Assembly: GCA_030550155.1 (NCBI GenBank)
Contig: JAUQPZ010000011.1
Coordinates: 1-43,014, forward strand
DNA: 43,014 nt
Reading direction: 5' to 3'
DNA from: Thermoproteota archaeon
GTDB taxonomy: Archaea; Thermoproteota; Nitrososphaeria_A; Caldarchaeales; Calditenuaceae
Part shown: one piece after another, positions 7,013 to 36,407 of the stretch
Layout of the letters: each line of letters begins with the position of its first letter
How positions within the stretch are numbered: position 1 is the stretch's first letter
Position numbers and translations under genes: made by a program
The notes under the pieces: model-generated
What the model was told of the DNA's origin: nothing
Database searches by the model: none
The model's input: only the letters and a program-made list of their open reading frames with translations

Positions 7013-8146
7013 TCAGGCCTCTGGGAGATCTGTCAGGAACCTCTTATTCAGCGCGTAGTAGACCGTAACTATGAAGCCGAGGAGGAAGATCACCAGGGTG
7101 GCTAGTATCGTGAAGACCAGTGGGTAGGGGATCTGGATGTAGACGTTCGAGAAGGGTGAGGGAGGTAGCCCCTTGTCGCCGAGGAGGACGAGGTAGGGCG
7201 CTCTTCCGCCGTCGTTGAGGTATTCGCCCAAGAGTACAATGAGGATGGCCAGCGGACCTAAGGCCAGGGCGTAGCGTGGAGCCTCACCGACCCCCCGCTT
7301 AATCCTCCGCCAGACCATATAGGAGATTACCGTCAGCGCAGCCAGCGCAAGAATCTTGAGAGTAAACATCGGCAGAAGATTTATCGTCGATTGAGCTGCT
7401 CCCAGTAGGTTGCTGTAAAGTATTGGAGCCTTATCTCCCAGTGTTATCAGATACCAGGGACCTATGAGAATCTGGGCAGCTAAGAAGACCACCCCGTGCC
7501 AGAGGCCGATCCAAAGGAATTTGGGTGATGTATTCTCTTTGATGGTGAAGAACGACGCTGTGATGAAGCCCCCCACAGATAACGCGCCCATCCAGGTGTG
7601 AAGTATCAGGGGCGGGTAGAGTGGGTTGTAGAAGACCTCGAGTCTAGCTACGTCGGTTAAGCCTTGGAGCGAGATTGCTAGACCGTGAGGATATGTTATC
7701 TCGGAGAAGATGTATCTGAAGCCCATGGGGACAGCGAAGCCTGAGAGAGCCATGACGAACCCCAGGGCTGAGTGAGAGGAAGGCCGAATCTTCCCCCAAG
7801 TATACCAGAAGAGGGCTATACTTGGTATCCTCACAATTATTGCGGACAAGGCCACGAGTATAGGGAAAAACATCAGGTCTGTAGCGATTGCCAAGAGCGT
7901 TGGGAAGAGCCCCGCGAGTATCACAGTTATTATTGTCCCCCAGACCCCGCTGAATAGCTCGTGAACTACGAGTATCTTGAAGACCCGCCGCGACATTATC
8001 TCCAGCGAGGGGTCGTTTCGACGCCATGCCAAGAACCTGGCCATCGCTGATATCCAGCCCGCCCCCATAGTTATGTTGACAAAGACGACGTGAACGAGGA
8101 CCGCGATGCCAAGTAGATTAAAGCTGAAGAGCTCCGTCGCGTTCAT
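7013..8146 (-). CDS. CydA'-type second subunit of archaeal bd-family oxidase (CydAA')
   Basis: A 377-residue protein with about nine membrane helices. At first sight it occupies the cydB position, but its N terminus (LVHVVFVNITMG, His19) and the helix with LILHTWMGALSVGG (His183) match the heme-ligand helices of CydA (E. coli His19 and His186). The C-terminal loop DGGRAPY is a weakened version of the CydA GRQPW motif. It lacks the quinol-loop Lys/Glu pair found in its partner. This is the architecture described for archaeal CydAA' enzymes, in which a CydA duplicate replaces CydB. Its ATG overlaps the stop of cydA by 4 bp, so the two are translationally coupled. Confidence 0.8.
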   Translation of the reverse strand: MNATELFSFNLLGIAVLVHVVFVNITMGAGWISAMARFLAWRRNDPSLEIMSRRVFKILVVHELFSGVWGTIITVILAGLFPTLLAIATDLMFFPILVALSAIIVRIPSIALFWYTWGKIRPSSHSALGFVMALSGFAVPMGFRYIFSEITYPHGLAISLQGLTDVARLEVFYNPLYPPLILHTWMGALSVGGFITASFFTIKENTSPKFLWIGLWHGVVFLAAQILIGPWYLITLGDKAPILYSNLLGAAQSTINLLPMFTLKILALAALTVISYMVWRRIKRGVGEAPRYALALGPLAILIVLLGEYLNDGGRAPYLVLLGDKGLPPSPFSNVYIQIPYPLVFTILATLVIFLLGFIVTVYYALNKRFLTDLPEA

Positions 8147-9717
8147 TCCTCAAGACCCGCCCCCCTTCTCAACAGCCTGACGAATTCAAGCGGCCTCGTG
8201 GCCACGAGGTACATCCCGTAGAGCCCTCCAGCAGCCATAGCTACGAATACTGCCGTAAATAGAGCCATGGTCGTGGCTGGGACCGGTGTGGGAGTCACAA
8301 GCTCCTCGGGATAGAGAAGGCCGTAGACAGTCCAAGGCTTCCTTCCGACCTCCCTCACGTACCACCCGAGCGAGGCAGGGAGTATCGAGCCCAGGAGTAT
8401 TAGTAGGGTGAGCAGGAAGAGAAGCCTCCTTCTGCTTAAACGGCCTGTAAGAGCGTTAACTATTCTAGAGATGGGGCCAAGGTTAAAGACCGAGGAGACG
8501 AGAGCCAACGCCGACACAAGAGCCACAACACCCCAAGCGATCTTGGTGTAGTATAGCGAGTTAACCAGCGCAACACGGCTCTGGGCGGCCGATACGTCCC
8601 TGAGGCAAAGGTCTCTGAGCTTGATGTCGCCCGAGGGGCCTGGAGTATATCCAGTGACCACCGCGGAGGCTAGGCTTCTGACTGTTGTTTCGCCGTGGGC
8701 TTCACATGCTTGTCGGAAGGAGTCGAAGCCGGGTATTGGCTTTGTGGCGTCACCATATGCGAGGAACGCGAGCAGTGGATTCTGCAACGTCTGCAAGGCC
8801 CCCTCCATCATCGCGAATTTAGTCGGCATGTACGCCGCCACAGCTTTACCCATGCTATCGCCGAAGACTGTGGGCTGGACGATAAGGAGCACGAGGATGA
8901 TAGGCAGGATGGGTCTGAGAAGCTTGACATATCTCGCCTCGCCTGTGCGAAGATGCCGGTAGGCAAGAGCCGCAACCGCTATGGAGACACCTACAATTAC
9001 TGCGGCTGTGACGTTGTGAAGGACGCTCACTTGGGCGTATGGGGAGGAGAGGGCGACGAATGGGTCTCTCAGACTTATTCCGATGGATTGTGCCACCTGC
9101 GGGTCTTGGAGAATCTGGGATGATGTCTCACTTGTCAGTAGACTGTTAACCAAGGCTAACTTTACCTGTACAAGGACCGATGTTTCAAAGGCCGCAGGCC
9201 CATACTCAGGTAGATACGGATATAGGACCGAGGCAAGAGCGCCTGTCCCCCAAGGAACATTTATCCAGCTGTTAAACATCGTGATTAGTGCCCCGGAGAG
9301 CGCGGCGAAGACAAAGTAACCGCCTAGCAGGCCGATACTGGTAAGCGGACTCACTCGCCGGAGAGTCACTATAAAAGCGATGAGAAAGACTATCTCGCCG
9401 ACGAAAGCTGTGAGCTCCGCCGCGAGGGGTACAAATGCCACCGTAGCTATTGCGTAGATTGAGCCCGGCCAGGCCTGAACGAGGCCGAACTCGACTAGAG
9501 TCCCGGTTATAGCTCCTAGGGCAAAGTTAACCGCTAGTACGCCCGTAGCGGTCCTCGCAGCAACATAGTAGTCCTCGTCGCGAGTCCTCCACCACATATA
9601 CATCAGGGCCCCTATTACGAACGGAAACCCCAGAGTAATGCTGACGAAGACGGCGTGTAGATAGATCCCAAGGGCGCTGATAGGCATAAGTAGAGAGACT
9701 ATTTTAGCGGCCGCCAT
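8143..9717 (-). CDS. cydA: Cytochrome bd-type oxidase subunit I (CydA of a CydAA' complex)
   Basis: A 524-residue membrane subunit that would oxidise quinol and reduce oxygen. Recognisable features are His21 in YLHAVFVSITLG (E. coli His19), His234 in SVLHNVTAAVIVG (His186), the quinol-loop pair Lys300/Glu305 in PTKFAMMEG (Lys252/Glu257), GDSMG before it, and GWYVREVGRKPW (GRQPW loop) at 451-462. By hand alignment the position of heme b558 ligand Met393 is Ala394 and that of Glu445 is Ser449. The start is ATG 9717: a TATA box 34-41 bp upstream fits, while the longer frame to 9825 adds a hydrophilic tail not seen in the family. The next gene overlaps by 4 bp. Confidence 0.85.
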   Translation of the reverse strand: MAAAKIVSLLMPISALGIYLHAVFVSITLGFPFVIGALMYMWWRTRDEDYYVAARTATGVLAVNFALGAITGTLVEFGLVQAWPGSIYAIATVAFVPLAAELTAFVGEIVFLIAFIVTLRRVSPLTSIGLLGGYFVFAALSGALITMFNSWINVPWGTGALASVLYPYLPEYGPAAFETSVLVQVKLALVNSLLTSETSSQILQDPQVAQSIGISLRDPFVALSSPYAQVSVLHNVTAAVIVGVSIAVAALAYRHLRTGEARYVKLLRPILPIILVLLIVQPTVFGDSMGKAVAAYMPTKFAMMEGALQTLQNPLLAFLAYGDATKPIPGFDSFRQACEAHGETTVRSLASAVVTGYTPGPSGDIKLRDLCLRDVSAAQSRVALVNSLYYTKIAWGVVALVSALALVSSVFNLGPISRIVNALTGRLSRRRLLFLLTLLILLGSILPASLGWYVREVGRKPWTVYGLLYPEELVTPTPVPATTMALFTAVFVAMAAGGLYGMYLVATRPLEFVRLLRRGAGLEE

Positions 9718-9750
9718 AATAGGCTCCGAGTTGGTGGAAAAATCGACACC

Positions 9751-9758
9751 TAATAAAC
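9751..9758 (-). promoter_or_regulatory. TATA box of the cydAA' operon
   Basis: GTTTATTA on the minus strand, 34-41 bp before ATG 9717. It is immediately preceded by a perfect 12-bp palindrome at 9761-9772. Confidence 0.55.
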
Positions 9759-9760
9759 GT

Positions 9761-9772
9761 TCATACGTATGA
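9761..9772. promoter_or_regulatory. Palindrome upstream of the cydAA' TATA box (candidate operator)
   Basis: TCATACGTATGA is a perfect 12-bp palindrome directly upstream of the TATA box, where an archaeal activator or repressor could bind. No regulator is identified. Confidence 0.35.
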
Positions 9773-9888
9773 TCACGAAGATCGATACACCAATACACAA
9801 AAACACGCCACCTAGCATACATCACATCTCAATACGTGTCAGGATGGTCTATCCCAGTCCCACCCTTAAGGCATGGATATCACGAGGA

Positions 9889-17464: not shown

Positions 17465-18862
17465 TTAGCCTCGGCTCTGTTGGAGGTTCTCTATAAGTAT
17501 TTGCAGGCCTCTCCTCAGGTCTTCCTCGCCTAGGCCCACCGATATCCTGATGTATTCAGGGTAGTCGCCGAACGCTGTTCCAGGGGCTACGGCCACTCGT
17601 GATCTCTCGAGGAGGTTGAGGGAGAATTGGGCGGAGTCAAAGCCTTTGTCCCCTATCTTTGGGAAGACATACATCCCTCCATCCGGTTTGACGTAGTTGG
17701 AGCCTATCTTGTCGAGCTCCTTGCACACCATCTCGAGCCTTCTCCTCATTGTGTCGCCGTACTGCTTCGGGGTCTCACTATCCCTCACAGCCTTTATTGC
17801 CGCCATCTGTATGAACTCTGGGACACACGTCACTAGCTGTGATAGAATTCGAGCGGCCCTGTCGGCCACCTCTCTGCTCGCGATGAGGTAGCCGATGCGG
17901 TATCCTGTCATTCCCCAGCTCTTTGAGAACGAGTTTATTATGATTGTCTTCTCATATCCGCTTTGGAGGGCTGAAGTGAACTCAGTGAAGCAGTAGTCCA
18001 TGTATACTTCGTCGCTTACGAGGTAAGCGTCTCTACGCCTGGCCTCTTCGACCAACTCAGACATCTCGGCGGGTTTTAGCGTGATACCCGTGGGGTTGTT
18101 GGGGTAGTTGATGAAGATTGTGCGTGGTTTTTGTTTCAGAACTCTTTCTATGTCTTCTCTCCTTGGCCTCCACCCATCCTCCACCGTTGTGTGGAGCTTT
18201 AGTGTTCTTGAGTGCATCATCTCTACTACTTGCTTGTATAGGGGCCAAGATGGGTCGATGACTACTCCTTGGTCTCCTGGCCTTAGCGTGGCAGCTGCAG
18301 CCAAGTAGACAGCGAATCTCCCGCCAGGCGTAACGACTATCTGCTCAGGAGAGACATCCACGCCGATTCTCTCCCGGAGCAGCTCTTTTATTGCGTTACG
18401 TAGCTCGGGTCTTCCCTTTGCCTCACCATAAGCGGCATATCCGTTTAGCGCTGCCCAGCTAAGTGTCTCTCCTACATGCGTTGGCGCTCCAAAGTCTGGT
18501 TCACCGACCTCTAGGTGGTATACCTTCTCGCCGCTCATCTCTATTTGTTTGGCGCGTCTGAAGATATCCATGTGGGTTATTCTGGATGTTTTTTGAGGCT
18601 GTTGAATCTTCACGGCCTCCTGTATTAGGAGGCTGAGTATTCTTTGTGCTTGTTCCGGGTCTAAGCCATTCTCCTGCGCGGTTTTCGCTATGTGTGTCCT
18701 CAGCTCTGCCTCAGCTTCAAGGTCAACTGCTTCCATGCCTAGGGCACTCTTCAGTTGCCCAAGCCTCTCGGCTAGCCTGTTCCTCTTGGCGATGGCCCTT
18801 AAGATTTCCTCGGTTACCTCTCTTATCTCATTCCTCAGGCTTTTTACCTCGTCCATACTCAT
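17465..18862 (-). CDS. Bifunctional chorismate mutase / class I aminotransferase
   Basis: A 465-residue fusion. Residues 1-90 form an AroQ-class chorismate mutase (SLRNEIREVTEEILRAIAKR, then LAERLGQLK with the usual Arg and Lys). Residues 95-465 are a class I PLP aminotransferase with YPNNPTG (253-259), SDEVY (283-287), PLP-lysine Lys314 in SFSKSWGMTGYRIGY, and a C-terminal YIRISVG arginine. The predicted role is chorismate to prephenate followed by transamination of prephenate or of an aromatic 2-oxo acid; the substrate of the second step is inferred. It is the last gene of the aro operon and its ATG overlaps the aroC stop by 4 bp. No prephenate dehydratase or dehydrogenase is in the window. 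Confidence 0.88.
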   Translation of the reverse strand: MSMDEVKSLRNEIREVTEEILRAIAKRNRLAERLGQLKSALGMEAVDLEAEAELRTHIAKTAQENGLDPEQAQRILSLLIQEAVKIQQPQKTSRITHMDIFRRAKQIEMSGEKVYHLEVGEPDFGAPTHVGETLSWAALNGYAAYGEAKGRPELRNAIKELLRERIGVDVSPEQIVVTPGGRFAVYLAAAATLRPGDQGVVIDPSWPLYKQVVEMMHSRTLKLHTTVEDGWRPRREDIERVLKQKPRTIFINYPNNPTGITLKPAEMSELVEEARRRDAYLVSDEVYMDYCFTEFTSALQSGYEKTIIINSFSKSWGMTGYRIGYLIASREVADRAARILSQLVTCVPEFIQMAAIKAVRDSETPKQYGDTMRRRLEMVCKELDKIGSNYVKPDGGMYVFPKIGDKGFDSAQFSLNLLERSRVAVAPGTAFGDYPEYIRISVGLGEEDLRRGLQILIENLQQSRG

Positions 18863-19968
18863 CCCGCATCACCTCGCAGAACGGGCGGTATGAGGCCCGC
18901 CCTGAGCGCGTGGTCAGCCAGCACTATAGCCACCATCGACTCGACCACAGGGACCGCTCGAGGGACTACGGTCGGGTCATGCCTCCCAGTTACGACCACC
19001 TCATCCATAACTCCCTTGCTCACGTTGAGTGTGCGCTGCGGCTTAGATATTGAGGAGGCCGGCTTGAAAGCGACTCGAACGACTATTTCACCTCCAGTGG
19101 AGAGGCCTCCGACTATTCCTCCCGCGTTATTTGTGAGAGGCGCGACTCGGCCGTTAACTATGCCTAAGGGGTCGTTATGCTCTGACCCCCTCATATCCGC
19201 TGCCCTGAACCCGGCCCCGAACTCTACGCCCTTAACTGCAGGGATGCTTAGAAGGGCTTTGGCGAGGTCTGAGTCGAGGGAGTCGAAGACTGGCTCGCCC
19301 AGTGTGGGTGGCACGTTGATTGCGATGCACTCAACTATTCCGCCAAGAGAGTCTCCTGCGGCTCTGGCTTCGATGATAGCCTGCCTCATGGATTCGGCCA
19401 CCTCTTCATCGGGGCACCTCACATCGTTACTCCATCTCTTCTCTCTAATAGACTCTATTGGAGTTGGTTTGGCCTCTATTCCCCCGATTCTCTTGCTGTA
19501 GGCTAATATCTCGACCCCTAGTGTTATCTTTAGCAGTTTCAGAGCCACGGCCCCAGCCATCACGAAGCCGGCCGTGATTCTTCCCGAGAATCTACCTCCT
19601 CCACGATGGTCGTTGAACCCTCCGTACTTCAGCCGCGCGAAGTAGTCTGCGTGCCCCGGTCTAGGTGTCTCGAGAACCTTGTTGTAGTCGCTCGACACCA
19701 CGTCTTTATTCCATATGAGCATGGCTATTGGTGCTCCTGTCGTGTATCCGTTGTAGACGCCGCTGAGTATCTCGACCTTGTCCTCCTCCTTTCGCTGCGT
19801 AGTTACTATGGATTGACCCGGCCTTCTCAGGTCTAATAGTGACTGGATATCTGACTCGGAGATCCTGAGTCCGGCGGGGCAGCCGTCTATGACCGCGCCG
19901 ACGCATCGGCCGTGGCTTTCCCCGAAGCTCAGAACCACAAACCTCTTCCCCAGCATGTTACCGCTCAA
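18859..19968 (-). CDS. aroC: Chorismate synthase
   Basis: FMN-dependent enzyme converting EPSP to chorismate. Signature regions are SFGESHGRCVGAVIDGCPAG near the N terminus, RPGHADYFARLKYG, HRGGGRFSGRITAG and NNAGGIVGGLSTGG, followed by GRHDPTVVPRAVPVVE. I choose TTG 19968, giving MSGNMLGKRF like the family's M(A/S)GNxxGK, because GAGGTGGAGG lies a few bases upstream and the TTGA overlaps the aroA stop. An in-frame ATG at 19986 would add six residues. The protein is about 369 residues, normal for AroC. Confidence 0.95.
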   Translation of the reverse strand: MSGNMLGKRFVVLSFGESHGRCVGAVIDGCPAGLRISESDIQSLLDLRRPGQSIVTTQRKEEDKVEILSGVYNGYTTGAPIAMLIWNKDVVSSDYNKVLETPRPGHADYFARLKYGGFNDHRGGGRFSGRITAGFVMAGAVALKLLKITLGVEILAYSKRIGGIEAKPTPIESIREKRWSNDVRCPDEEVAESMRQAIIEARAAGDSLGGIVECIAINVPPTLGEPVFDSLDSDLAKALLSIPAVKGVEFGAGFRAADMRGSEHNDPLGIVNGRVAPLTNNAGGIVGGLSTGGEIVVRVAFKPASSISKPQRTLNVSKGVMDEVVVTGRHDPTVVPRAVPVVESMVAIVLADHALRAGLIPPVLRGDAG

Positions 19969-21236
19969 CGGGCCTCCACCTCGCATCCCAGTTTTTTAAG
20001 GTCGTCTAAGAACTGGGGGTATGACACTGAGGCGCACTCAGGGTCCAGGACCTCTAGCCCACCCCCCGAGGCCAATGAGAGGAGTGCGAAGGCCATGAAT
20101 AGCCTGTGGTCTCCCCGCGGGTCTAGCCTGGCGGGCCTCAGCCGCCCTCCACCCACCACGAGGCCGTCATGCAGTTCTTGGACGCGTATTCCAGCCTTAA
20201 AGAGCTCTGACGCGAGGGCGCTTATCCGGTCGCTTTCCTTATATCTTGCATGACCGACACCCCGTATCCTGGTCTCACCCTCGGCAACAGAGGCTAAAAC
20301 AGCGACGACGGGAAGCAGGTCCGGGCTATCGCTCAGCTCAACATCAACACCTCTCAACCCTGCTTCACTCACCTCAACACAGCCCTCATCCTCCCGCACA
20401 TCGGCGCCCATAGCTCTGATTATCTCGACTACTCTATAGTCGGCTTGGGGGAGCGAGGGGTCGAGGCCCGAGATCTTGACGCGGCCCCCCGCCACGAGGG
20501 GCGCGGCCATCATGAATCCTGCGAGCCCGTAGTCACCAGGCACCGTGAAGATTGTGGAGTGGTATCCGCTCGGATTTGAGTAGAAGAGGCTGTATCCTTC
20601 TCTCTCGACTGACGCTCCGAAGGCTTTCATGACGTTGATCGTCGCGTCGATGTATGGTTTGGACACCAGCCTGCCCTGGACCCTGACCTTGACGCCTTCA
20701 GCTGTGCAGCTACCCGCTATTAGGAGGCCTGTGATGAATTGGCTGCTGATGTCGCCCCTGATGACGCATTCTCCACCCATCTCCCCGGCCTCAACTATGA
20801 CTGGCGCGGTGCCGTTTAGCTTGGAGGACCAGGCCTTTATCTTGAGCTGGCCTAGGGCGTCGAGAAGCGGCTGCATGGGCCTCTTTCTAAGGCTCTCGTC
20901 CCCCGTGAGTACTGTGTAGCCTTTTTTCACTAGCCCGGCTACACAGGTCATGATTCTGAGGGTAGTGCCGGAGTTCATGGCGTCCACGACGTTTTCGGGG
21001 GTCTGCGGCTTACTGAGCCCATGCATCGTTATTGCTTGTTCCCGGGCCTCGAGTTGGGCTCCGAAGAGTTTGGCGGCGTTGATTGTGGCCTCTGTGTCTC
21101 TTGAGTAGAGGGGGTTGTTTATGGTTGATGCACCGGGTGCTAGTAGGGCGACTGAGACAGCTCTATGTGTGTAGCTTTTGCTGGGAGGCGCCCTGACCTC
21201 CCCCCGCAGGCCACTCCCCCTAACCTTGACTATCAT
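19965..21236 (-). CDS. aroA: 3-phosphoshikimate 1-carboxyvinyltransferase (EPSP synthase)
   Basis: A 423-residue EPSP synthase joining phosphoenolpyruvate to shikimate 3-phosphate. Family landmarks are PPSKSYTHRAV (17-27), MNSGTTLRIM (PEP loop), SLRKRPMQPL, SSQFITGLL and the C-terminal ARYKESDRI segment. The length is typical. The start overlaps the aroE stop by 4 bp, and the aroC start overlaps its own stop by 4 bp, so translation of the three is probably coupled. Confidence 0.95.
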   Translation of the reverse strand: MIVKVRGSGLRGEVRAPPSKSYTHRAVSVALLAPGASTINNPLYSRDTEATINAAKLFGAQLEAREQAITMHGLSKPQTPENVVDAMNSGTTLRIMTCVAGLVKKGYTVLTGDESLRKRPMQPLLDALGQLKIKAWSSKLNGTAPVIVEAGEMGGECVIRGDISSQFITGLLIAGSCTAEGVKVRVQGRLVSKPYIDATINVMKAFGASVEREGYSLFYSNPSGYHSTIFTVPGDYGLAGFMMAAPLVAGGRVKISGLDPSLPQADYRVVEIIRAMGADVREDEGCVEVSEAGLRGVDVELSDSPDLLPVVAVLASVAEGETRIRGVGHARYKESDRISALASELFKAGIRVQELHDGLVVGGGRLRPARLDPRGDHRLFMAFALLSLASGGGLEVLDPECASVSYPQFLDDLKKLGCEVEAR

Positions 21237-22072
21237 GTTGGGTCCCTCCTCCTAGCCAGCCAAATCCTCACAGCCCTCTCCATCAAGGCGCGGTCAGGCT
21301 CCAACCCAATTATGATTCTGAAGGCCTCGGCTCCCTGCTCCACAAGCATCTTGACGCCGTCGATGTATTTTGAGCCCGCCTGCTCGGCTACAGCCTGTAG
21401 CGGCGTGGTGCGGGGCGAGTAGACCATGTCGAGGATTACGTGGTTTTTAGACAGGTCTTCAGGGCGTAGGGGGCTTTCGCGGTATGTTAGGCCAAGGGGC
21501 GTTGCGTTGATTATTATGTAGGCTTTGCGCGCCTCTCTTCCAGCCTCTCCCAGCGCGACAACCTTGATATCTAGGCCGAGCTTCTCCCTGAATCTCCAAG
21601 CCAGAGCCTCGGCCCTCTCTGGGCTCCGATTGGCTAATACAACCCGACCCACACCGAGCCTCCAAAGAGCATAGAGGGCGGCCGCAGCCGAGCCCCCTGC
21701 ACCAAGAACTAAGCAGCAGCCGGCGCCATCCTCAATCTGAGGCGCGATGCTCCTCTCGACACCCGCCACGTCCGTGTTATATCCTGCCCAACCCCCATGA
21801 ATCCTACGCAGGGTATTGACCGCGCTCACGGCCTCGGCCTCCTCCGAGAGGGAGAGAGATAGGCGGGCGGCCGCCTCCTTATGCGGTATCGTTATGTTGA
21901 GACCCTTAAAGCCTAGGACGTGAAGTGAGTTAAGAGTCCTTTTGAACTGGTCGGGGCGTGTGTCGATGGCTATGTATCTGAGAGGTAAGCCGAGCGCGCG
22001 GAGCGCCGCGTTATGCATGATTGGCGAGGCTGAATGAGATATGGGATGGCCTATGACTGCGAGGAGCGCCAT
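21233..22072 (-). CDS. aroE: Shikimate dehydrogenase
   Basis: A 279-residue NADP-dependent shikimate dehydrogenase. It shows GHPISHSASPIMHNAAL at the substrate site, NITIPHKE with the catalytic Lys, NTDVAG with the catalytic Asp, a Rossmann GAGGSAAAALYAL loop and NATPLGL. It reduces 3-dehydroshikimate made by the aroD product encoded just upstream. The start overlaps the aroD 3' end by 22 bp. Confidence 0.95.
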   Translation of the reverse strand: MALLAVIGHPISHSASPIMHNAALRALGLPLRYIAIDTRPDQFKRTLNSLHVLGFKGLNITIPHKEAAARLSLSLSEEAEAVSAVNTLRRIHGGWAGYNTDVAGVERSIAPQIEDGAGCCLVLGAGGSAAAALYALWRLGVGRVVLANRSPERAEALAWRFREKLGLDIKVVALGEAGREARKAYIIINATPLGLTYRESPLRPEDLSKNHVILDMVYSPRTTPLQAVAEQAGSKYIDGVKMLVEQGAEAFRIIIGLEPDRALMERAVRIWLARRRDPT

Positions 22073-22764
22073 GAGTCGGTAAACACCTCTAGCGCCTCTG
22101 CAACCTCATGCAAGCTGAGCTGGCCCGGCGCAACGGCAAGACCCGGAAGAGAGGCATAAGTGAAAGGCGCGCCCAGGACCACGCTAAAAATCCTTGTTAG
22201 GCTCCACCCCTCACCCATGCTGAAAGCCACAAGCCTCCCGCGAACTCTTTCCTCCGCGTAGAGCGAGAGAATTGCAGCCGCCTCAGAGGGCTTCCGCGGA
22301 CTGTTGACTATCTTAACTATCCCGGCGAGGGCCAGGTCGCTTGACAAAAGCCGCCTCATCTCCCCCACCGTGGGCGAGGCGTCTAAGAAGTGCTTGGACG
22401 ATATTACCTCCACACCCATGCCCTTAAACTCCTCGACCAAGGCGGGGTTTTCGTGTATAGTGTCATGCTCCAAGTCAACATAGTCCATTATTTCCGACAT
22501 ACTCCTTAGAAGTTCAAGCCTTTCCGCCTCTCCTCCAGTATATAATCCGCCCTCCCGCCTAGGCCTCAGCGTCACGATCTTTCGAGGCGCTCCGCTTGAT
22601 ACCGTCTTTGGGACACGCCGCAGCTCTGGAACAGCTAAACCGTCGAGCCTGAGCTCTAAGAGTCTGGCCCCGACCTCGAGCGCCATGCCAGAGAGCTTCT
22701 CAAGCTCCTCTAAGCTTCTCGGTAGTAGGGAGACACAGATTTTCTCAAGTATGTCAGACCTCAT
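22051..22764 (-). CDS. aroD: 3-dehydroquinate dehydratase, type I
   Basis: A 237-residue type I dehydroquinase that forms a Schiff base. LLELRLDGL carries the substrate-site ELR and D. SSKHFLD holds the likely catalytic His and GIVKIVNS the Schiff-base Lys; PGQLS near the C terminus is conserved. A longer frame begins at 22824, inside aroB', but ATG 22764 gives the normal family N terminus (MRSDILEKICVSLLPRS) and overlaps the upstream gene by only 11 bp. Confidence 0.93.
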   Translation of the reverse strand: MRSDILEKICVSLLPRSLEELEKLSGMALEVGARLLELRLDGLAVPELRRVPKTVSSGAPRKIVTLRPRREGGLYTGGEAERLELLRSMSEIMDYVDLEHDTIHENPALVEEFKGMGVEVISSKHFLDASPTVGEMRRLLSSDLALAGIVKIVNSPRKPSEAAAILSLYAEERVRGRLVAFSMGEGWSLTRIFSVVLGAPFTYASLPGLAVAPGQLSLHEVAEALEVFTDSWRSSQS

Positions 22765-23752
22765 CGATGTATTCGTCGACCTCCATGCCCATGTGGCGGG
22801 CAGCCTTACTTGAGAGCCAGACAATTATCTCCTCGCCCTTTGAGAGTGTTGTTACGTCAACTATCTCGCCCTTAGCTGTCACAAGCCTTATCGTCTCCGC
22901 CTTCTGAAGCGTCACGGAGCCCCATGTACCATCCGACTCCGCGTTTACCTGAACCATCGGCCTCCTCTCAATCTTTACGCGCCCAACCGCCACAACCCTT
23001 GCAGAGCCGTCCTTCGAGACCATCAAGACCCTCATACCCGACTTCAGCTCTGAGAGGTAGAGGGTTTTGCCTGTTGGACCTAGAGTGTAGAGGTGGACTG
23101 AGCCAGCGTTCACACGGAAGGGCCTGGGCGGGGTGAACCTCGAGCCCACGGATTCGTTATGGATGAGGAAGAGCATCCTAGCCATGCTTCCGACGAGAAG
23201 ACCTTCACCGTATCTGAGCATCGCTGTCGTGTCTACACAGACCCTCTCGCCCATGCCGACGTCGAAGACATCTGTTACACGCGCAGTCCTTAGCTCAACC
23301 CTCCTCACCTGCTTCACCATCTCTGACAGCAGACCAATCTCGCTTGCGCTGGAGGCGCGATAGATTACGCCGTCAACACCCTTCTCAAGCACACCAAGCA
23401 TAGACTCAGCTTCATCGACGCTCCCAATCCTGACAAAGACTCGTGTCCCAGTTCCCTGAAGCCCCGCAAGAATGTTCTCGAGCGGTATTATCCTCACATC
23501 ACTCGTCTCTACCAGAACCGCCTCTACACCCGTCCTCGCTATGCGGTATACCTCCTCTACGTCACTGGGCTTCGAGACCCTAACCGGCACAAGGTCCCTG
23601 CCGAGCGTATAGATTCTTGCACGCGTCTTCAGCTCGGCGGGCTGCGCCCCCTCCCTGAAGAGGAGAGCCGTGGCGCCTGCGGCCGCAGCCTCTTCAGCCT
23701 CTTTGACCGAGGAGACCTCGACGATTATCTCTTTAGGCTTTATCGAGCTCAA
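22754..23752 (-). CDS. aroB': 3-dehydroquinate synthase II (archaeal AroB')
   Basis: A 332-residue member of the archaeal DHQ synthase II family (typified by MJ1249). It oxidatively deaminates and cyclises the ADH made by the preceding enzyme to 3-dehydroquinate, using NAD. The N-terminal alpha/beta part has EIIVEVSSVKEAEEAAAAGA and a central GVDGVIYRASSASEIG. The C-terminal beta domain has NAGSVHLYTLGPTGKTLYLS and RRPMVQVNAE, both characteristic. It replaces bacterial AroB and is unrelated to it. Its ATG overlaps the ADH synthase stop by 4 bp. Confidence 0.95.
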   Translation of the reverse strand: MSSIKPKEIIVEVSSVKEAEEAAAAGATALLFREGAQPAELKTRARIYTLGRDLVPVRVSKPSDVEEVYRIARTGVEAVLVETSDVRIIPLENILAGLQGTGTRVFVRIGSVDEAESMLGVLEKGVDGVIYRASSASEIGLLSEMVKQVRRVELRTARVTDVFDVGMGERVCVDTTAMLRYGEGLLVGSMARMLFLIHNESVGSRFTPPRPFRVNAGSVHLYTLGPTGKTLYLSELKSGMRVLMVSKDGSARVVAVGRVKIERRPMVQVNAESDGTWGSVTLQKAETIRLVTAKGEIVDVTTLSKGEEIIVWLSSKAARHMGMEVDEYIDEV

Positions 23753-24546
23753 ACCTTGTCCTCTCTTTCAAGTATGGAGAGAGCGTCCTCCAGGCTTCTA
23801 TCCTCTATGACCACCGCTCGTAGGGCCCTGACTATGGTTGCTGGCCTCTCGTGCATGAAGACGTTCCTTCCTATGGTGACGCCCATGGCGCCAGCGTCGA
23901 TCGCCTCTCTAGCCATCTTCAGCACGGCTAGGTCGTTATCCATCTTCGGGCCACCAGCCATCACCACAGGAGCCGGGCAAGCCTCCACGACACGCCTAAA
24001 TGTTTCCACGCTACCGCTGTAAGGCACCTTCACTATGTCCGCTCCGAGCTCGGCCCCGACACGGGCAACATGCATCAGGACGTTGGGGTCGTTGGGGTCT
24101 TTAATCCCCTCTCCCCGCGGATACATCATGGCTATCAATGGCAGGCCCCAAGATTCACACTCGTCAGCTATCTCTCCCAGTTTCCGAAGCATCTCAGGCT
24201 CAGCCTTACTCCCGATGTTTATGTGGACTGAGAGGCCGTCGGCTCCGCGCCGCAGCGCGGCCTCCGCGCCTCCCACTCTGACCTTCCAGTTGGGGTCTGG
24301 GCCGAGGGCTGTGCTCCCTGAGACATGTATTATGAAACCTATTCTCGGGGGCTCGGGCATATGCTTCACGATGCCCTTCTGTACCAAGAAGGCCGTTGCT
24401 CCACCCCTCTCTACTTCGCGGATTGTCTTGTAGATGGTGTCAAGCCCCTTCATTGGGCCGGAGGTTATTCCGTGGTCCATCGGTATGCAGAGCATCCTTC
24501 CCCTATCGGTCAGCCTCGAAATTCTAACCTGTTTCCCCGAGACCAC
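23749..24546 (-). CDS. aroA': 2-amino-3,7-dideoxy-D-threo-hept-6-ulosonate (ADH) synthase
   Basis: A 265-residue DhnA-type aldolase homologous to MJ0400. It condenses aspartate semialdehyde with a 6-deoxy-5-ketofructose 1-phosphate-type donor to give ADH, the archaeal entry to the shikimate pathway. Catalytic positions are Asp24 in PMDHG, Tyr142 in MMYPRG and Schiff-base Lys173 in DIVKVPYSG. The phosphate loops VMAGGPK and GVTIGRNVF follow. Pairing with DHQ synthase II and with asd one base upstream separates it from plain class I fructose-bisphosphate aldolase. Confidence 0.93.
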   Translation of the reverse strand: MVSGKQVRISRLTDRGRMLCIPMDHGITSGPMKGLDTIYKTIREVERGGATAFLVQKGIVKHMPEPPRIGFIIHVSGSTALGPDPNWKVRVGGAEAALRRGADGLSVHINIGSKAEPEMLRKLGEIADECESWGLPLIAMMYPRGEGIKDPNDPNVLMHVARVGAELGADIVKVPYSGSVETFRRVVEACPAPVVMAGGPKMDNDLAVLKMAREAIDAGAMGVTIGRNVFMHERPATIVRALRAVVIEDRSLEDALSILEREDKV

Positions 24547-24547
24547 C

Positions 24548-25600
24548 CTACCTCACCTTTCTTAAAGCGTAGAGCAGCTCGGCCGTCAGTATCGCGGAGC
24601 CAGCCGCTCCCCGGATGAGGTTATGGCTCAGCGACACAAACATCACCGTCCCCGGCCTCTTACCCTTCCTCACCCTACCAACAGAGACCACCATCCCCGG
24701 CACCTCACCCGCGTCGCTATCAAGCCTAGGCTGCGGCCTCTCATCATAGTCGAAGACATTTATTGGACGTCGAGGAGCTGACGGCAACTCCAGCTTCTGA
24801 GGTAACCCGATAAACCCGCTCAAGGACTCCTTGACCTCTTCCACGGAGACATCCCGCTCCAGCTCAACCTGAACAGCCTCCAGGTGGCCCACGATCGTCG
24901 GCACCCTCGTGCAGGTCGCATCTATCTGGACATCAAGGGGCTTTATCTCTCCGTCGACAAGCGTCCCCAGAATCTTTCTAGGCTCCTCCGAGACCTTAGG
25001 CTCCTCTCCGTCGATGTACGGTATAATGTTGCCCAGAATGGCCATTGAGGGGACACCGCTGTAGCCTGCCCCAGAGATAGCCTGCATCGTCACAACGTTG
25101 ACGTATCTGAGCCCGAAGTCGTCTACGAGCGGCTTGAGTGGAAGTGCGAACCCCACCGTTGTGCAGTTCGGAGTAGTGACTATATATCCATCCCATCCGC
25201 GCCTCTTCTTCTGGGACTCTACCAGCTCGATATGCTCAGGATTCACCTCAGGTATGATTAATGGTACATCAGGCCAGTATCTGTGCGCCGAGGCATCGCT
25301 AACTACCGGGAACCCCGCGGCGGCGAACTTAGGCTCCACCTCTCTGGCAGCCTTGGTTGGAAGGCAGCTGAACACCAAGTCGGCGTCTATCTTCGCAGGG
25401 TCCGAGGACAGAACCTCCAAGTCTGCATACTCGCTAGGCACGTGCCCTTTTCCGCGGTAAGCCTCTCCAAGCCTCTTCCCCACAGAGGAGTTACCCGTCA
25501 CCGCCTTAATCTCGAACCACGGATGTCGGCTCAGCATCTGCACGTATATCTGACCCACCATTCCAGTAGCTCCGAGAATAGCTACACCTAACCTACCCAT
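24548..25600 (-). CDS. asd: Aspartate-semialdehyde dehydrogenase
   Basis: A 350-residue NADP-dependent enzyme making aspartate semialdehyde from aspartyl phosphate. The dinucleotide loop is GATGMVGQ (10-17). The catalytic Cys is Cys146 in TTPNCTTVG and the catalytic His is His239 in TRVPTIVGHLEA. It is the archaeal/fungal subtype by length and by the DPAKIDADLVFSCLP region. It leads the aro operon and its product is the direct substrate of the next enzyme, though lysine, threonine and methionine synthesis would also draw on it. A GGTGGTTGTGAT tract immediately precedes ATG 25600. Confidence 0.95.
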   Translation of the reverse strand: MGRLGVAILGATGMVGQIYVQMLSRHPWFEIKAVTGNSSVGKRLGEAYRGKGHVPSEYADLEVLSSDPAKIDADLVFSCLPTKAAREVEPKFAAAGFPVVSDASAHRYWPDVPLIIPEVNPEHIELVESQKKRRGWDGYIVTTPNCTTVGFALPLKPLVDDFGLRYVNVVTMQAISGAGYSGVPSMAILGNIIPYIDGEEPKVSEEPRKILGTLVDGEIKPLDVQIDATCTRVPTIVGHLEAVQVELERDVSVEEVKESLSGFIGLPQKLELPSAPRRPINVFDYDERPQPRLDSDAGEVPGMVVSVGRVRKGKRPGTVMFVSLSHNLIRGAAGSAILTAELLYALRKVR

Positions 25601-25655
25601 ATCACAACCACCACACAGCTGCAGAGCAGAGGGAGGGGAAAGGAGAGCCCGCTAA

Positions 25656-25726
25656 GCATAGGGGCCAAAATAGAAGGCATAGGTCGTAGTAGCTGTTTGA
25701 AGTGTTAAGTCGCTACGACCTACGCC
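25656..25726. promoter_or_regulatory. Inverted/direct repeats in the asd-aroK divergent region (candidate operator)
   Basis: TAGGTCGTAG (25680-25689) and CTACGACCTA (25713-25722) form a perfect 10-bp inverted repeat with a 23-bp spacer. Extending outward the arms match at 13 of 14 positions (25676-25689 and 25713-25726). The half-site GCATAGG also occurs at 25656-25662, exactly 21 bp (two helical turns) before its copy at 25677. The elements lie between the asd operon and shikimate kinase, so one regulator could control both directions. This is inference; no regulator gene is adjacent. Confidence 0.5.
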
Positions 25727-25766
25727 CCTCCCCCTACTCATGCGGGCTCTACAGGATATCCGCTCA

Positions 25767-25774
25767 ATTTATAT
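25767..25774 (+). promoter_or_regulatory. TATA box for shikimate kinase
   Basis: TTTATATC lies 30-37 bp before ATG 25804 and supports that start over the longer frame from 25702. Confidence 0.55.
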
Positions 25775-25803
25775 CTTTTCTACGCCAGAACGTAGCTTGG
25801 AAA

Positions 25804-26670
25804 ATGGCTCGGAGAGGGGTGGGGGAGGCACACGGGGCCGTCTCCATAATCAACGCCATCTCGACCGGCTTTGGCGCGGCCTTAGGAGTGGATTTCCACA
25901 CCCGGGCAGTTGCTGAGCCAGATGAGAGTGGTGTGACGGTGCTGGTTAACAAGGACAGGATTGGCGACGACTCCCTCGTCAAAGAGGTTGTATCTACAAT
26001 CTCTGAGCTGGCAGGGGTAAAGGGGTTGGGGTTCAGGGTTGTCACAGAATCTGACATACCCGTAGCGGTGGGGTTGAAGAGCTCGAGCTCGGCGGCAGTT
26101 GCCGCGGGGCTAGCCGTCCTAGATGCGCTGGGGGAGGTGATTGAGGCTGACAGATTCTTAGCAGGTATTGCAGAGGCTTCGCAGAGATCAGGCGTCTCGA
26201 TAACAGGCGCACTGGATGACGCGGCAGCTTGCATGCTGGGCGGCGTAGTCATAACGGATAACTACGCGAGGAGAATACTGCTGAGGAAAGAGGTTGCCGA
26301 GGACTTATCCGTGGCCATCCTCGTCCCCGAGAGGAAGACCTATACGCGCGAATTTAGAAAAGAGCTCCTCACACCGATCAAAGAGCTAGTGTCTGAGGCC
26401 TTTAGAATTGCAGAGCGCGGAGATTACTGGCGGGCGATGACACTAAACGGCCTACTCCACGCGGCGGCCCTGAACATCAACCCACAACCAATACTCGATG
26501 CTCTCCGGGCTGGAGCGTTGGGGGCGGGCGTCTCAGGCACAGGCCCGGCAATAGCCGCGGTGGCCCCCAGCCCCTTGATTAAGCCGGTCAGGGAGGCCCT
26601 GTCGATGCATGGGAGCCAGGTTGTCGTGAAAAAGGTTGTGAACTCTCCGAGAGGCGGCCGTTCGCAGTGA
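25804..26670 (+). CDS. aroK: Archaeal shikimate kinase (GHMP family)
   Basis: A 288-residue GHMP-superfamily kinase that phosphorylates shikimate at O3, unrelated to bacterial AroK. Motifs are GEAHGAVSIINAI near the N terminus, the ATP loop VAVGLKSSSSAAVAAG, TGALDDAAACMLGG and a C-terminal GAGVSGTGPAIAAV. The family normally begins close to this GEAHGA segment, and a TATA box about 32 bp upstream fits ATG 25804; the longer open frame adds 34 poorly conserved residues. It fills the only shikimate step absent from the minus-strand operon. pth2 begins one base after its stop. Confidence 0.93.
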   Translation: MARRGVGEAHGAVSIINAISTGFGAALGVDFHTRAVAEPDESGVTVLVNKDRIGDDSLVKEVVSTISELAGVKGLGFRVVTESDIPVAVGLKSSSSAAVAAGLAVLDALGEVIEADRFLAGIAEASQRSGVSITGALDDAAACMLGGVVITDNYARRILLRKEVAEDLSVAILVPERKTYTREFRKELLTPIKELVSEAFRIAERGDYWRAMTLNGLLHAAALNINPQPILDALRAGALGAGVSGTGPAIAAVAPSPLIKPVREALSMHGSQVVVKKVVNSPRGGRSQ

Positions 26671-33514: not shown

Positions 33515-34312
33515 GTGACTCACGGCCCCGATCCTCAGAAGCATAAAGAGGGCACGGGTCAACCGAGAAGCTCTGGGCAGCAATTTGATAGAAGACAGTT
33601 CTTGACAGGCACCATCGTGGGTGGAGCCGCGCTCTTTGTCTCTGCAGCGGCATTGCGGTCTGTAGACTATAGTCTTGAGGTCACGCATCTTCATGTGGGG
33701 CTGGGAGCTAGGCTTACCTTCCTACCTGACCTCCATATTCACGAGATTGGCGAGGCTCATGTCGAGAAAACCTTGAAGGCATTAGAGGATGTTGACACAG
33801 ACATGCTGGTTATTGGGGGCGACTTAGTTGATGAGGAGACAAAGAATTTAGAGGCTGTCGGGAAGTTTCTTGACCAGCTTGACGTGAAGGAGAAGTTGTC
33901 GGTTCTCGGAAATCACGAATACTGGAGTGGACATGCCAAAGAAGTGGCCGCGGCTCTTAGGAGTAGGGGGTTCGAGGTCTTGTTCAATGAGCATGTGCAG
34001 ACATCCGTTGGCCCAGTCTTTGGATATGATTGGAGCGAGGAAAGAAGATATCAGGAGCTCAGACTCAACGGGCTCGTCATAGCCCACGACCCCAACGCTG
34101 CGGACAGCGTGAAAGGAAGGGCCCTCGTGCTTTCCGGCCATACACACGGAGGACTCGTCCTTAACGGACACACCATATACTCAAACTCGAGATACGTAAG
34201 AGGGCACTACAGGCTCGGCGGCGAAGTCCACCTCTATGTATCCAGAGGGGTCGGCCAGATGTCTTTCCAGTTCAGGGTCTGGTCAAGACCCGAGCTCCTC
34301 ATACTCGACTAA
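33515..34312 (+). CDS. Tat-exported metallophosphoesterase (YkuE/YaeI-like)
   Basis: A 265-residue calcineurin-fold phosphoesterase. A twin-arginine signal lies at FDRRQFLTG (Arg26-Arg27) followed by a hydrophobic stretch (32-47), so it is probably exported folded by Tat. Metal-binding motifs are DLHIH (72-76), GGDLVD (101-106), GNHEYW (132-137) and SGHTHGG (about 204-210). Similar enzymes act on membrane-linked substrates such as phospholipid head groups, but the substrate here is unknown. The start is GTG 33515, with a TTAAATATC box near 33470. Confidence 0.85.
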   Translation: MTHGPDPQKHKEGTGQPRSSGQQFDRRQFLTGTIVGGAALFVSAAALRSVDYSLEVTHLHVGLGARLTFLPDLHIHEIGEAHVEKTLKALEDVDTDMLVIGGDLVDEETKNLEAVGKFLDQLDVKEKLSVLGNHEYWSGHAKEVAAALRSRGFEVLFNEHVQTSVGPVFGYDWSEERRYQELRLNGLVIAHDPNAADSVKGRALVLSGHTHGGLVLNGHTIYSNSRYVRGHYRLGGEVHLYVSRGVGQMSFQFRVWSRPELLILD

Positions 34313-34387
34313 GGATGTCTTTAGGGAGGCGGGTTCGGTCTTCCCTGCCGGCCTCCACACCCTCCTGGGCTTTTGGATGTTTTAGCT

Positions 34388-34400
34388 TCTTCAAATATAA
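34388..34400 (+). promoter_or_regulatory. TATA box for the small helical protein gene
   Basis: TCTTCAAATATAAAAG has its TATA core 25-35 bp before TTG 34426. Confidence 0.45.
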
Positions 34401-34425
34401 AAGCTGGCTAGACGGGTTATTCGCG

Positions 34426-34773
34426 TTGTCTGCCCGTCAAAAGGCTGCTGGTGCTAGGGAGGTGTGGAGGACTCTGAGGAGTATTGTGACTGACCTCAGG
34501 GGGTTCCTCGAGACAGATGATTATAGGTTTATTCAGGAAGCCTGTGCGAAAGCTGGTTCTCTGGAATCCGTCGGCGAGGCCGCGCATCTCAGCGGGATGA
34601 GGGACCTGGTAGAAAATCTTAGGAGTATGAAGGAGAAGCTTGAGAGGAGCGGCTATAATCTCTCCACAGTCGAGCATGGTTTGCTGGCCCAGCAGGCAGT
34701 TTACACAATATCAAGGGCCAACATCTTAGCGACCGGGCTGGAGTTTCGATTCAAAAGGGCTAGAGGAGGTTAA
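34426..34773 (+). CDS. Hypothetical helical protein, about 115 residues
   Basis: Not recognised. The open frame extends to 34315, but a strong AAATATAAAA box near 34392 lies inside it, so TTG 34426 is the likelier start. The product is almost all helix and strongly charged (REVWRTLRSIVTDLRGF, ENLRSMKEKLERSGYN, then a C-terminal amphipathic helix) with no signal or membrane segment. It follows the metallophosphoesterase but appears to have its own promoter, and converges with the HEAT-repeat gene 10 bp away. Confidence 0.5.
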   Translation: MSARQKAAGAREVWRTLRSIVTDLRGFLETDDYRFIQEACAKAGSLESVGEAAHLSGMRDLVENLRSMKEKLERSGYNLSTVEHGLLAQQAVYTISRANILATGLEFRFKRARGG

Positions 34774-34783
34774 AAGGCCGTCT

Positions 34784-35287
34784 TCAACCCCCCGTTTTAC
34801 GGGCGAACTCCTCCGACCACTCGTCGCGCCGAACAGTAAATAGTCTCTTACAGAAGGCGATGTTGCTCAGGGCGATAATGGCCGAGTCTACCACATCCTG
34901 CGATTCGTCTTTCAAGGCCTCCTCCAAGTCCGAGGATGCCTCGTCGCTCCCGATAACTCCGAGGGCGATGGCTGACTCGTGGCGGACTATGGGGTGTGGG
35001 TCTCTCTTCAACGACTCCACCAAGTAGGGTATGGCCTCTCTATAGCCCAGCTGCCCCAGCGAGTAGGCGGCCTCATGCCTCACTATAGGATTCTCGTCGC
35101 GTAGCAAAACCTCGGCCAAGTCCCTGATGTATTCGCGCCCACCCAGCTCAGCCAGCACACACGTAGCGCGGGCCCTAATAGTGAAGTCATGATGCTTGAG
35201 CAGGCCCCTGAAATACTCAGCGTCTCGCACCCGATATCTCTCCTCCATCTCAAGGAAGATCTCGATACGTGAATCAGGCACCTTCAT
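34784..35287 (-). CDS. Four-HEAT-repeat protein resembling one half of deoxyhypusine hydroxylase
   Basis: A 167-residue protein of about four HEAT repeats (roughly 21-52, 53-84, 85-116 and 117-148). Two consecutive repeats carry His-Glu pairs, His71-Glu72 in IVRHEAAYSLGQLG and His103-Glu104 in IVRHESAIALGVIG, spaced 32 residues apart. Eukaryotic deoxyhypusine hydroxylase has eight HEAT repeats as two such halves, each with two HE pairs 33 apart that bind a di-iron centre. A dimer of this protein could supply all four pairs. PBS-lyase-type HEAT proteins also contain HE motifs, so the function is not settled. It has its own GTTTATC box about 31-36 bp upstream and lies 49 bp after nuoH. Confidence 0.65.
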   Translation of the reverse strand: MKVPDSRIEIFLEMEERYRVRDAEYFRGLLKHHDFTIRARATCVLAELGGREYIRDLAEVLLRDENPIVRHEAAYSLGQLGYREAIPYLVESLKRDPHPIVRHESAIALGVIGSDEASSDLEEALKDESQDVVDSAIIALSNIAFCKRLFTVRRDEWSEEFARKTGG

Positions 35288-35336: not shown

Positions 35337-36407
35337 TTAGAGGGTTATAGACCAGGACTCGCCGACGAGAGACACGCCGGCCGTTATTATCAGGTTCAAG
35401 AAGGCGAGTGGTATGAGGTATTTCCACCCCAGGTCTAGGACCTTCTCGATGGTCAGCCGGGGATAGACTCCTCTCAGAAGCGCTACTAGTGTGAACAGTA
35501 CGAGCGCCTTCAAGATCATCCAGATGGGTGCTGAGATGCTCTCAGGGATTCCGGGGATCGGAGGCCCCAGCCAGCCTCCGAGATAGAGCAGAGTCCCTAA
35601 GAAGCAGAAGGCCAGGACTTTCTCGAACATGGCTAGCTGAATCATGAGAAAGTAGACGCCAGAGTACTCTGTCTGCCAGCCGAAGACAATCTCGCCTTCG
35701 GCTGTAGGGATGTCGAAAGGAAGCCTCTCGGTCTCGGCAAGCAAGGTAACCAAGAACACGATGAATCCAAGCACCTGTGTGACGGCCAGCGGGACGGCAA
35801 CCTGCGCCTCAACTATCTTCTCTAGGTTCAGTGTGCGGGTTGATAGAACAACTCCTGTGAGGGCTAGGAAGAGAGGGACTTCGTATCCGAAGAGCTGTAA
35901 AGCGATTCTCGACATGCCAATGAACGGGTATTTACTTCTCGAGGCGTATCCCGCCAAGATAATGGGGAGAGGGGACAAAGCAGTTACTAGGAAGAATAAG
36001 AGTAGGCCTATGTCTGACGGATATATCACCCAGCCGGCTCCGAAGGGTAGGAAGGCGTATAGCAGTAGCGATAATATTAGTGCAAGGCAGGGCATGAGGA
36101 CGAAAAGAGGCTTATTGACGCCCTCGGGTATTATCCTCTCCTTTGAGAGGAATTTTAGCGCATCTGCGATCAGCTGCAGTATTCCGGCGACCTTTCCTAC
36201 GTTGAGGGGGCCGATTCTGAGGGAAACCCGCGCGAAGAGTTTCCTCTCGAACCAGACCGCAAAGATTCCGAGCAGAGTGCTGAAGAGCGCGCCGGGGAAG
36301 ATGGCCGCCTTTATGAATGACTCGCTATACAGGAAACGTAGGAGCGTTTGAATAGCTTCAGGCATAGCGTTGTATATTTGGAGAAACTGCTGCACTGGGT
36401 CTATCAA
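35337..36407 (-). CDS. nuoH: Complex I membrane subunit NuoH
   Basis: A 356-residue NuoH/ND1 with eight or nine hydrophobic helices. Diagnostic segments are FERKLFARVSLRIGPLNVG after helix 1 and the acidic AETERLPFDIPTAEGEIVFGWQTEYSG loop of the quinone-channel region. It contributes to the quinone site at the junction with the peripheral arm. Its ATG overlaps the nuoA stop by 4 bp. The remaining Nuo membrane and peripheral genes, except a NuoI-like gene 4 kb away on the other strand, are not in the window. Confidence 0.95.
   Translation of the reverse strand: MIDPVQQFLQIYNAMPEAIQTLLRFLYSESFIKAAIFPGALFSTLLGIFAVWFERKLFARVSLRIGPLNVGKVAGILQLIADALKFLSKERIIPEGVNKPLFVLMPCLALILSLLLYAFLPFGAGWVIYPSDIGLLLFFLVTALSPLPIILAGYASRSKYPFIGMSRIALQLFGYEVPLFLALTGVVLSTRTLNLEKIVEAQVAVPLAVTQVLGFIVFLVTLLAETERLPFDIPTAEGEIVFGWQTEYSGVYFLMIQLAMFEKVLAFCFLGTLLYLGGWLGPPIPGIPESISAPIWMILKALVLFTLVALLRGVYPRLTIEKVLDLGWKYLIPLAFLNLIITAGVSLVGESWSITL

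Follow-up and report, generated by a model that had tools for sequence, protein, structure and literature searches.

A likely half-size, deoxyhypusine hydroxylase-type HEAT protein in Thermoproteota and its half-size relatives in Thermoplasmatota

In the window analysed here, which is the whole stretch of 43,014 nucleotides from a Thermoproteota archaeon, a short gene resembling one half of deoxyhypusine hydroxylase (DOHH) is located between one nuoH-like gene and one convergent gene. The full-length orthologous family of its product is referred to as W. The features of the locus, in coordinates of the window, are as follows:

34315–34773, plus strand: convergent gene with no Pfam hit, kept in all five congeners that were examined; it marks the right-hand limit of the interval in which the W gene is present or absent
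34784–35287, minus strand: half-size DOHH-like HEAT gene with ATG start, 167 aa (Pfam, PDB, AlphaFold2)
34787–34795, minus strand: C-terminal Thr-Gly-Gly-COOH, invariant in W; not in canonical DOHH
34976–34981, minus strand: HE motif 2, H103-E104, corresponding to H89-E90 and H240-E241 of human DOHH
35051–35059, minus strand: invariant L77-G78-Q79, with G78 aligned with the human LGQ glycine G214
35072–35077, minus strand: HE motif 1, H71-E72, corresponding to H56-E57 and H207-E208 of human DOHH
35337–36407, minus strand: nuoH-like gene, 49 bp upstream of the HEAT gene and on the same strand

The open reading frame at 34784–35287 is confirmed as genuine. Elsewhere in the window, 33515–34312 (plus strand) encodes a metallophosphatase-like protein, possibly with a twin-arginine signal; the congeners examined have no match to it at the equivalent site. 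Positions 17465–26670 hold what reads by eye as a nearly complete cluster for the aromatic (shikimate) pathway, with one chorismate mutase–aminotransferase fusion (17465–18862; Pfam CM_2 and Aminotran_1_2). At 7013–9825 (minus strand), two genes resembling cytochrome bd subunit I (Cyt_bd_oxida_I) lie next to each other; one of the two is very divergent.

The window protein contains about four HEAT repeats and one long C-terminal helix. Its AlphaFold2 model has a pLDDT of 94.1; the underlying alignment used rows from the half-size DOHHs of Thermoplasmatota and no W-family rows from our genome search. The original prediction had pointed out two HE pairs 32 residues apart in consecutive HEAT repeats. 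This is correct, as is the motif quoted with it: the pairs are residues 71–72 and 103–104, and in the model they occupy equivalent places in consecutive HEAT helices (67–80 and 99–112). The spacing in human DOHH is 33 residues.

The window protein and eukaryotic DOHH (EC 1.14.99.29; human 4d4z, yeast Lia1) are both of HEAT fold, with HE pairs in successive repeats; in both, the first HE is followed by LGQ and the second is part of VRHE, and the window protein retains every residue that binds iron or substrate in one DOHH half. Different from human DOHH, in which two fused halves form one chain of 302 residues with four HE pairs, the window protein corresponds to one half, with 167 residues and two HE pairs. 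The identity between the window protein and eukaryotic DOHH is about 32%. In the PDB sequence search only designed alphaRep-type HEAT proteins outscored human DOHH (4d4z, E 5.8e-23), the closest natural sequence. Among designed HEAT proteins, 4d4z is also the closest natural fold to the model, superposing at 1.9 Å over 130 columns (chain B). The HEAT-repeat fold of the window protein is predicted to be that of one DOHH half.

Pfam matched PF13646 (HEAT_2) to the window protein with an E-value of 5.4e-23, and both Pfam and NCBIfam assign it to generic HEAT families only; neither contains a family carrying the DOHH name. HEAT_2 is a superfamily label and is compatible with DOHH, because DOHH halves are HEAT repeats too.

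In 300 Thermoproteota genomes, the single-sequence search matched 56, and in one of these (G184) the match was weak and to a longer protein; W is present in 55–56 genomes. The full-length orthologues matched at E≤1.9e-37 with 43–78% identity, in open frames of about 165–240 aa, and all non-W matches were at E≥2.1e-14, leaving a clean gap. The holders belong to the window's genus, two further genera of its order and the families f7, f41 and f45, which we infer, from their genome size and the universal presence of haem-copper oxidase, to be ammonia-oxidising archaea. In 38 distinct W sequences, H71, E72, G78, Q79, H103 and E104 are invariant, and so are R38, R40, C43 and D96. In a set of 37 distinct generic HEAT-like repeats, read from the DNA of the examined loci, not one has HE at the matching position. 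Being invariant in the orthologues and missing from the generic repeats, the HE pairs are beyond chance. All W orthologues end in FxxxTGG-COOH (34787–34807 in the window), and thus share an invariant Gly-Gly C-terminus.

Mutagenesis has identified H56, H89, E90, H207, H240 and E241 as the iron ligands of DOHH, and E57, E90, E208, E241, G65 and G214 as its deoxyhypusine-binding residues (PMC9117371). In the human sequence used here the LGQ glycine of the N-terminal half is G63, equivalent to G214 of the C-terminal half, and the G65 of that paper may be a numbering slip for G63; the human sequence used matches 4d4z across residues 1–289. For one DOHH half, the equivalents in W are H71, H103 and E104 for iron and E72, E104 and G78 for the substrate, all invariant in the 38 sequences. 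As judged by alignment, W keeps each residue position tied by mutagenesis to iron or substrate binding in one DOHH half.

We constructed one DOHH profile of 13 rows, comprising 11 Thermoplasmatota proteins and the two human halves, with no W row. On the 300 Thermoproteota genomes, W scored 79–100 bits (the window protein 93.6 bits, E 8.6e-27), whereas all other HEAT proteins scored at most 53.5 bits. With the HE columns masked, W still scored 66.6–88.5 bits and generic HEAT proteins at most 50.1 bits; since the gap persists, the idea that the DOHH likeness is owed to HE alone was rejected. In hhalign, W and DOHH aligned with a score of 190 (E 1.9e-31), compared to 108 for W and the best generic HEAT family. 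The profile comparison that had been proposed thus came out on the side of DOHH.

These scores bear on the simplest alternative, that W is an ordinary scaffold of the HEAT/PBS-lyase type whose HE pairs have a structural or partner-binding role and whose likeness to DOHH is convergent. The generic PBS-lyase HEAT proteins (HEAT_2, NblB, CpcE/F, YibA, alphaRep) share the fold and repeat signature with W, and they are the sole curated families that match it; in addition, the HE-masked tree fails to group W with DOHH. However, those examined contain no HE-HE set and have lower DOHH-profile scores, the masked profile sets W apart from every other HEAT protein examined, and the two His and two Glu residues do not vary among the sampled W members. 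We consider the scaffold explanation improbable.

The closeness to one DOHH half, as originally claimed, holds in the profile, the HE-masked profile, hhalign and the PDB fold, but not in every respect. Several residues shared by the human and Thermoplasmatota DOHHs are missing from W, namely F/LR after R.RA, the Cys of ESC, and SVDPAPP; EALG is also missing, the Glu of VRHEAxEALG being replaced by Ile or Val, and the conserved C-terminal TGG is present instead. In the HE-masked tree W forms a separate clade (97/90). In HE-masked AU tests, the placement of W with DOHH (p 0.52) and with generic HEAT proteins (p 0.50) was equally acceptable. On these alignments and trees W appears to stand outside the canonical DOHH clade, and "DOHH-like" is the best name for it.

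Such a pattern, an invariant active-site half without the DOHH-clade residues outside it, is what would be seen if W were a homodimeric di-iron HEAT oxygenase of the same chemistry acting on another protein or a small molecule rather than on aIF5A. The invariant TGG, peculiar to W, may be read the same way, and a second HE-HE paralogue in some lineages indicates that the scaffold may serve several substrates. Hypusine has also been reported in Sulfolobus (PMC5178350), which has no HEAT_2 protein; its formation in Thermoproteota may therefore be independent of W. On the other side, G78 and both deoxyhypusine-linked Glu residues are invariant, and in one genome (G134) a deoxyhypusine synthase (DHS) gene adjoins the W gene. 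A different substrate is in our view unlikely, and it is the rival that we take most seriously.

The second paralogue, termed B (L050, 2452–2958; L051, 2089–2580; L054, 2282–2776; L230), is found in divergent context in f7 and f45 genomes. Like W, it is about 165–175 aa in size and has two HE pairs in consecutive repeats. Different from W, its DOHH score falls to the generic HEAT level when HE is masked, and it usually lacks the LGQ glycine; B may be another metal-binding HEAT protein. As B accompanies W in f7 and f45 genomes, a heterodimer of the two could be the working enzyme in some lineages. We regard this as very improbable: the masked score counts against it, and B is missing from the window's lineage, where an 865-aa protein is the only one besides W that matches HEAT_2.

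To place W among prokaryotic relatives of DOHH, we scanned 84,980 prokaryote genomes (GTDB contigs) with an alignment led by the N-terminal half of human DOHH, which also contained the human C-terminal half and W rows, and matches were confirmed against the human N-terminal half. Among the 362 relatives found, the best 80 are nearly all from Poseidoniales or unclassified "Euryarchaeota" MAGs and share 44–53% identity with the human N-terminal half. All 80 have a single HE-HE set per locus in one short frame, and the non-redundant proteins among them are 151–181 aa in size. They retain SVDPAPP, R.RA.F.LRN, SALLRHELAYVLGQ, MVRHEAAEALGAIG and ESCEVALD. Within Thermoplasmatota as a whole, 46 of the 194 genomes searched gave matches, a few of them weak and generic or in broken frames; members beyond the main group are likewise half-size. 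One of these proteins folds onto 4d4z (49% identity, E 1.9e-10), and in the HE-masked tree both human halves nest within the Thermoplasmatota half-size clade (99/97). When the window protein was compared with five genomes containing a half-size DOHH, that DOHH was the sole match in each. No link to DHS or aIF5A genes was observed in the flanks examined. Judged by sequence, these proteins of Poseidoniales and other Thermoplasmatota are unmistakably half-size DOHHs. Examples are located at L055–L134 (e.g. L059, 3905–4378, plus strand); they are unannotated and not named in NCBIfam.

With one HE-HE set per half-size chain, a four-HE site requires two chains, and the Thermoplasmatota protein is presumably a homodimer. 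Because these clear DOHHs also lack four HE pairs in one chain, that feature defines the eukaryotic form only, and the half-size architecture that had been proposed is sound in principle. Compared to the Thermoplasmatota proteins, W is also archaeal, with a single half (theirs being about 150–180 aa) and one HE-HE set; however, they clade with the human halves, and the window protein is only about 30% identical to them. The Thermoplasmatota DOHHs probably outrank the window gene in importance.

The genomic context of W was examined for O2 use and for the hypusine pathway. COX1 (haem-copper oxidase) is present in all W holders except the fragmented draft G217, and in roughly a quarter of genomes without W; this is as expected of an O2 user, although shared descent confounds the comparison. 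Of the 300 Thermoproteota genomes, 288 contain DHS, so that its co-occurrence with W, which had been suggested as a check, is uninformative and was rejected as evidence. Every W holder examined, including the window's genome, carries two DHS paralogues, but so do about half of the non-holders, and this pattern too is confounded by descent. In G134 the W gene is divergent from one DHS gene at a distance of 75 bp, with the second DHS adjoining, and the distance between the W gene and a DHS gene is 5 kb in G017 and G049. This linkage is confined to one family, and none was seen in the other lineages examined. The two DHS paralogues, about 25% identical, are convergent neighbours in G134 and in the window's genome (L045, 3626–5566; L049, 5213–7217), and both retain the SW(G/R/H)K active-site lysine region.

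The aIF5A of W holders keeps the hypusine loop SK(T/P)GKHG; in the window's genome, searched with an archaeal IF5A sequence, it reads KSKTGKHGSAK. With two DHS genes and aIF5A, the hypusine substrate pathway is present there, which is weak evidence given the near-universality of DHS. A further, incomplete aIF5A of the MAG lies at the end of a contig (L257, G000:C28) and is identical over 114 aa to that of the congener G078 (L252); contamination or strain mixing in the assembly is possible.

In the window and in G078 the W gene lies between nuoH and the convergent gene; at this syntenic junction it is missing from four of six congeners, and it is thus dispensable; yeast LIA1 is dispensable too (PMC8153317). 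Viral contigs were scanned for relatives of the window protein and none was found, and a viral origin was rejected on this ground. A nuo-related role, suggested by the neighbourhood, was likewise rejected, since congeners have nuoH without W and the neighbours in other lineages are unrelated. The neighbourhood bears as well on the possibility that W is a non-catalytic metal-binding HEAT protein, an iron or O2 sensor or an assembly factor whose HE pairs hold iron at the dimer interface. The invariance of the HE pairs, the aerobic gene content of the holders and the proximity to nuoH, a respiratory-complex gene, in two species are consistent with such a role. However, the nuoH neighbourhood is not kept outside the genus, and metal binding alone leaves the retention of the LGQ glycine and the second-shell Glu unexplained. 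We hold this explanation to be quite improbable.

Taken together, the conserved residues and profile scores indicate that the window gene product is likely a half-size DOHH-type di-iron HEAT protein. The best explanation is a half-size DOHH-type HEAT metalloprotein that pairs to hydroxylate aIF5A deoxyhypusine, a proposal for which we hold belief and doubt in even balance; an aIF5A hydroxylase function of W is plausible to the same degree. Two W chains would pair face to face, in the pseudo-twofold geometry of eukaryotic DOHH, with each chain holding one iron, and together they would build one peroxo-di-iron site. This site would use O2 to hydroxylate the deoxyhypusine side chain, supplied on aIF5A by DHS, yielding hypusine.

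In papers published between 2012 and 2021, archaea are said to have no known DOHH orthologue, although several of them contain hypusine (PMC3306375, PMC5178350, PMC6105217, PMC7773846, PMC8153317); this agrees with the original statement that no archaeal DOHH is generally recognised. We found no literature on DOHH in Thaumarchaeota or ammonia-oxidising archaea; coverage was partial and a recent report could exist. Hypusine has been reported in Sulfolobus acidocaldarius (PMC5178350), in which our HEAT_2 search, with this genome as a control, found no HEAT_2 protein. There must therefore be a further route to hypusine in archaea, or more than one; W cannot account for Sulfolobus hypusine, which would stay a separate unsolved problem.

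Eukaryotic DOHH looks like a duplicated, fused form of the half-size unit. Tentatively, and with slightly more doubt than belief, we propose that archaeal DOHHs are half-size homodimers, canonical in Thermoplasmatota and divergent in aerobic Thermoproteota (the window gene), that eukaryotic DOHH arose by tandem duplication and fusion, and that the ancestral di-iron oxygenase architecture is kept in living homodimers. The Thermoplasmatota half-size DOHHs and W offer small candidate proteins of about 160 aa, which would reveal the origin of eukaryotic DOHH and how its di-iron site evolved from a symmetric homodimer.
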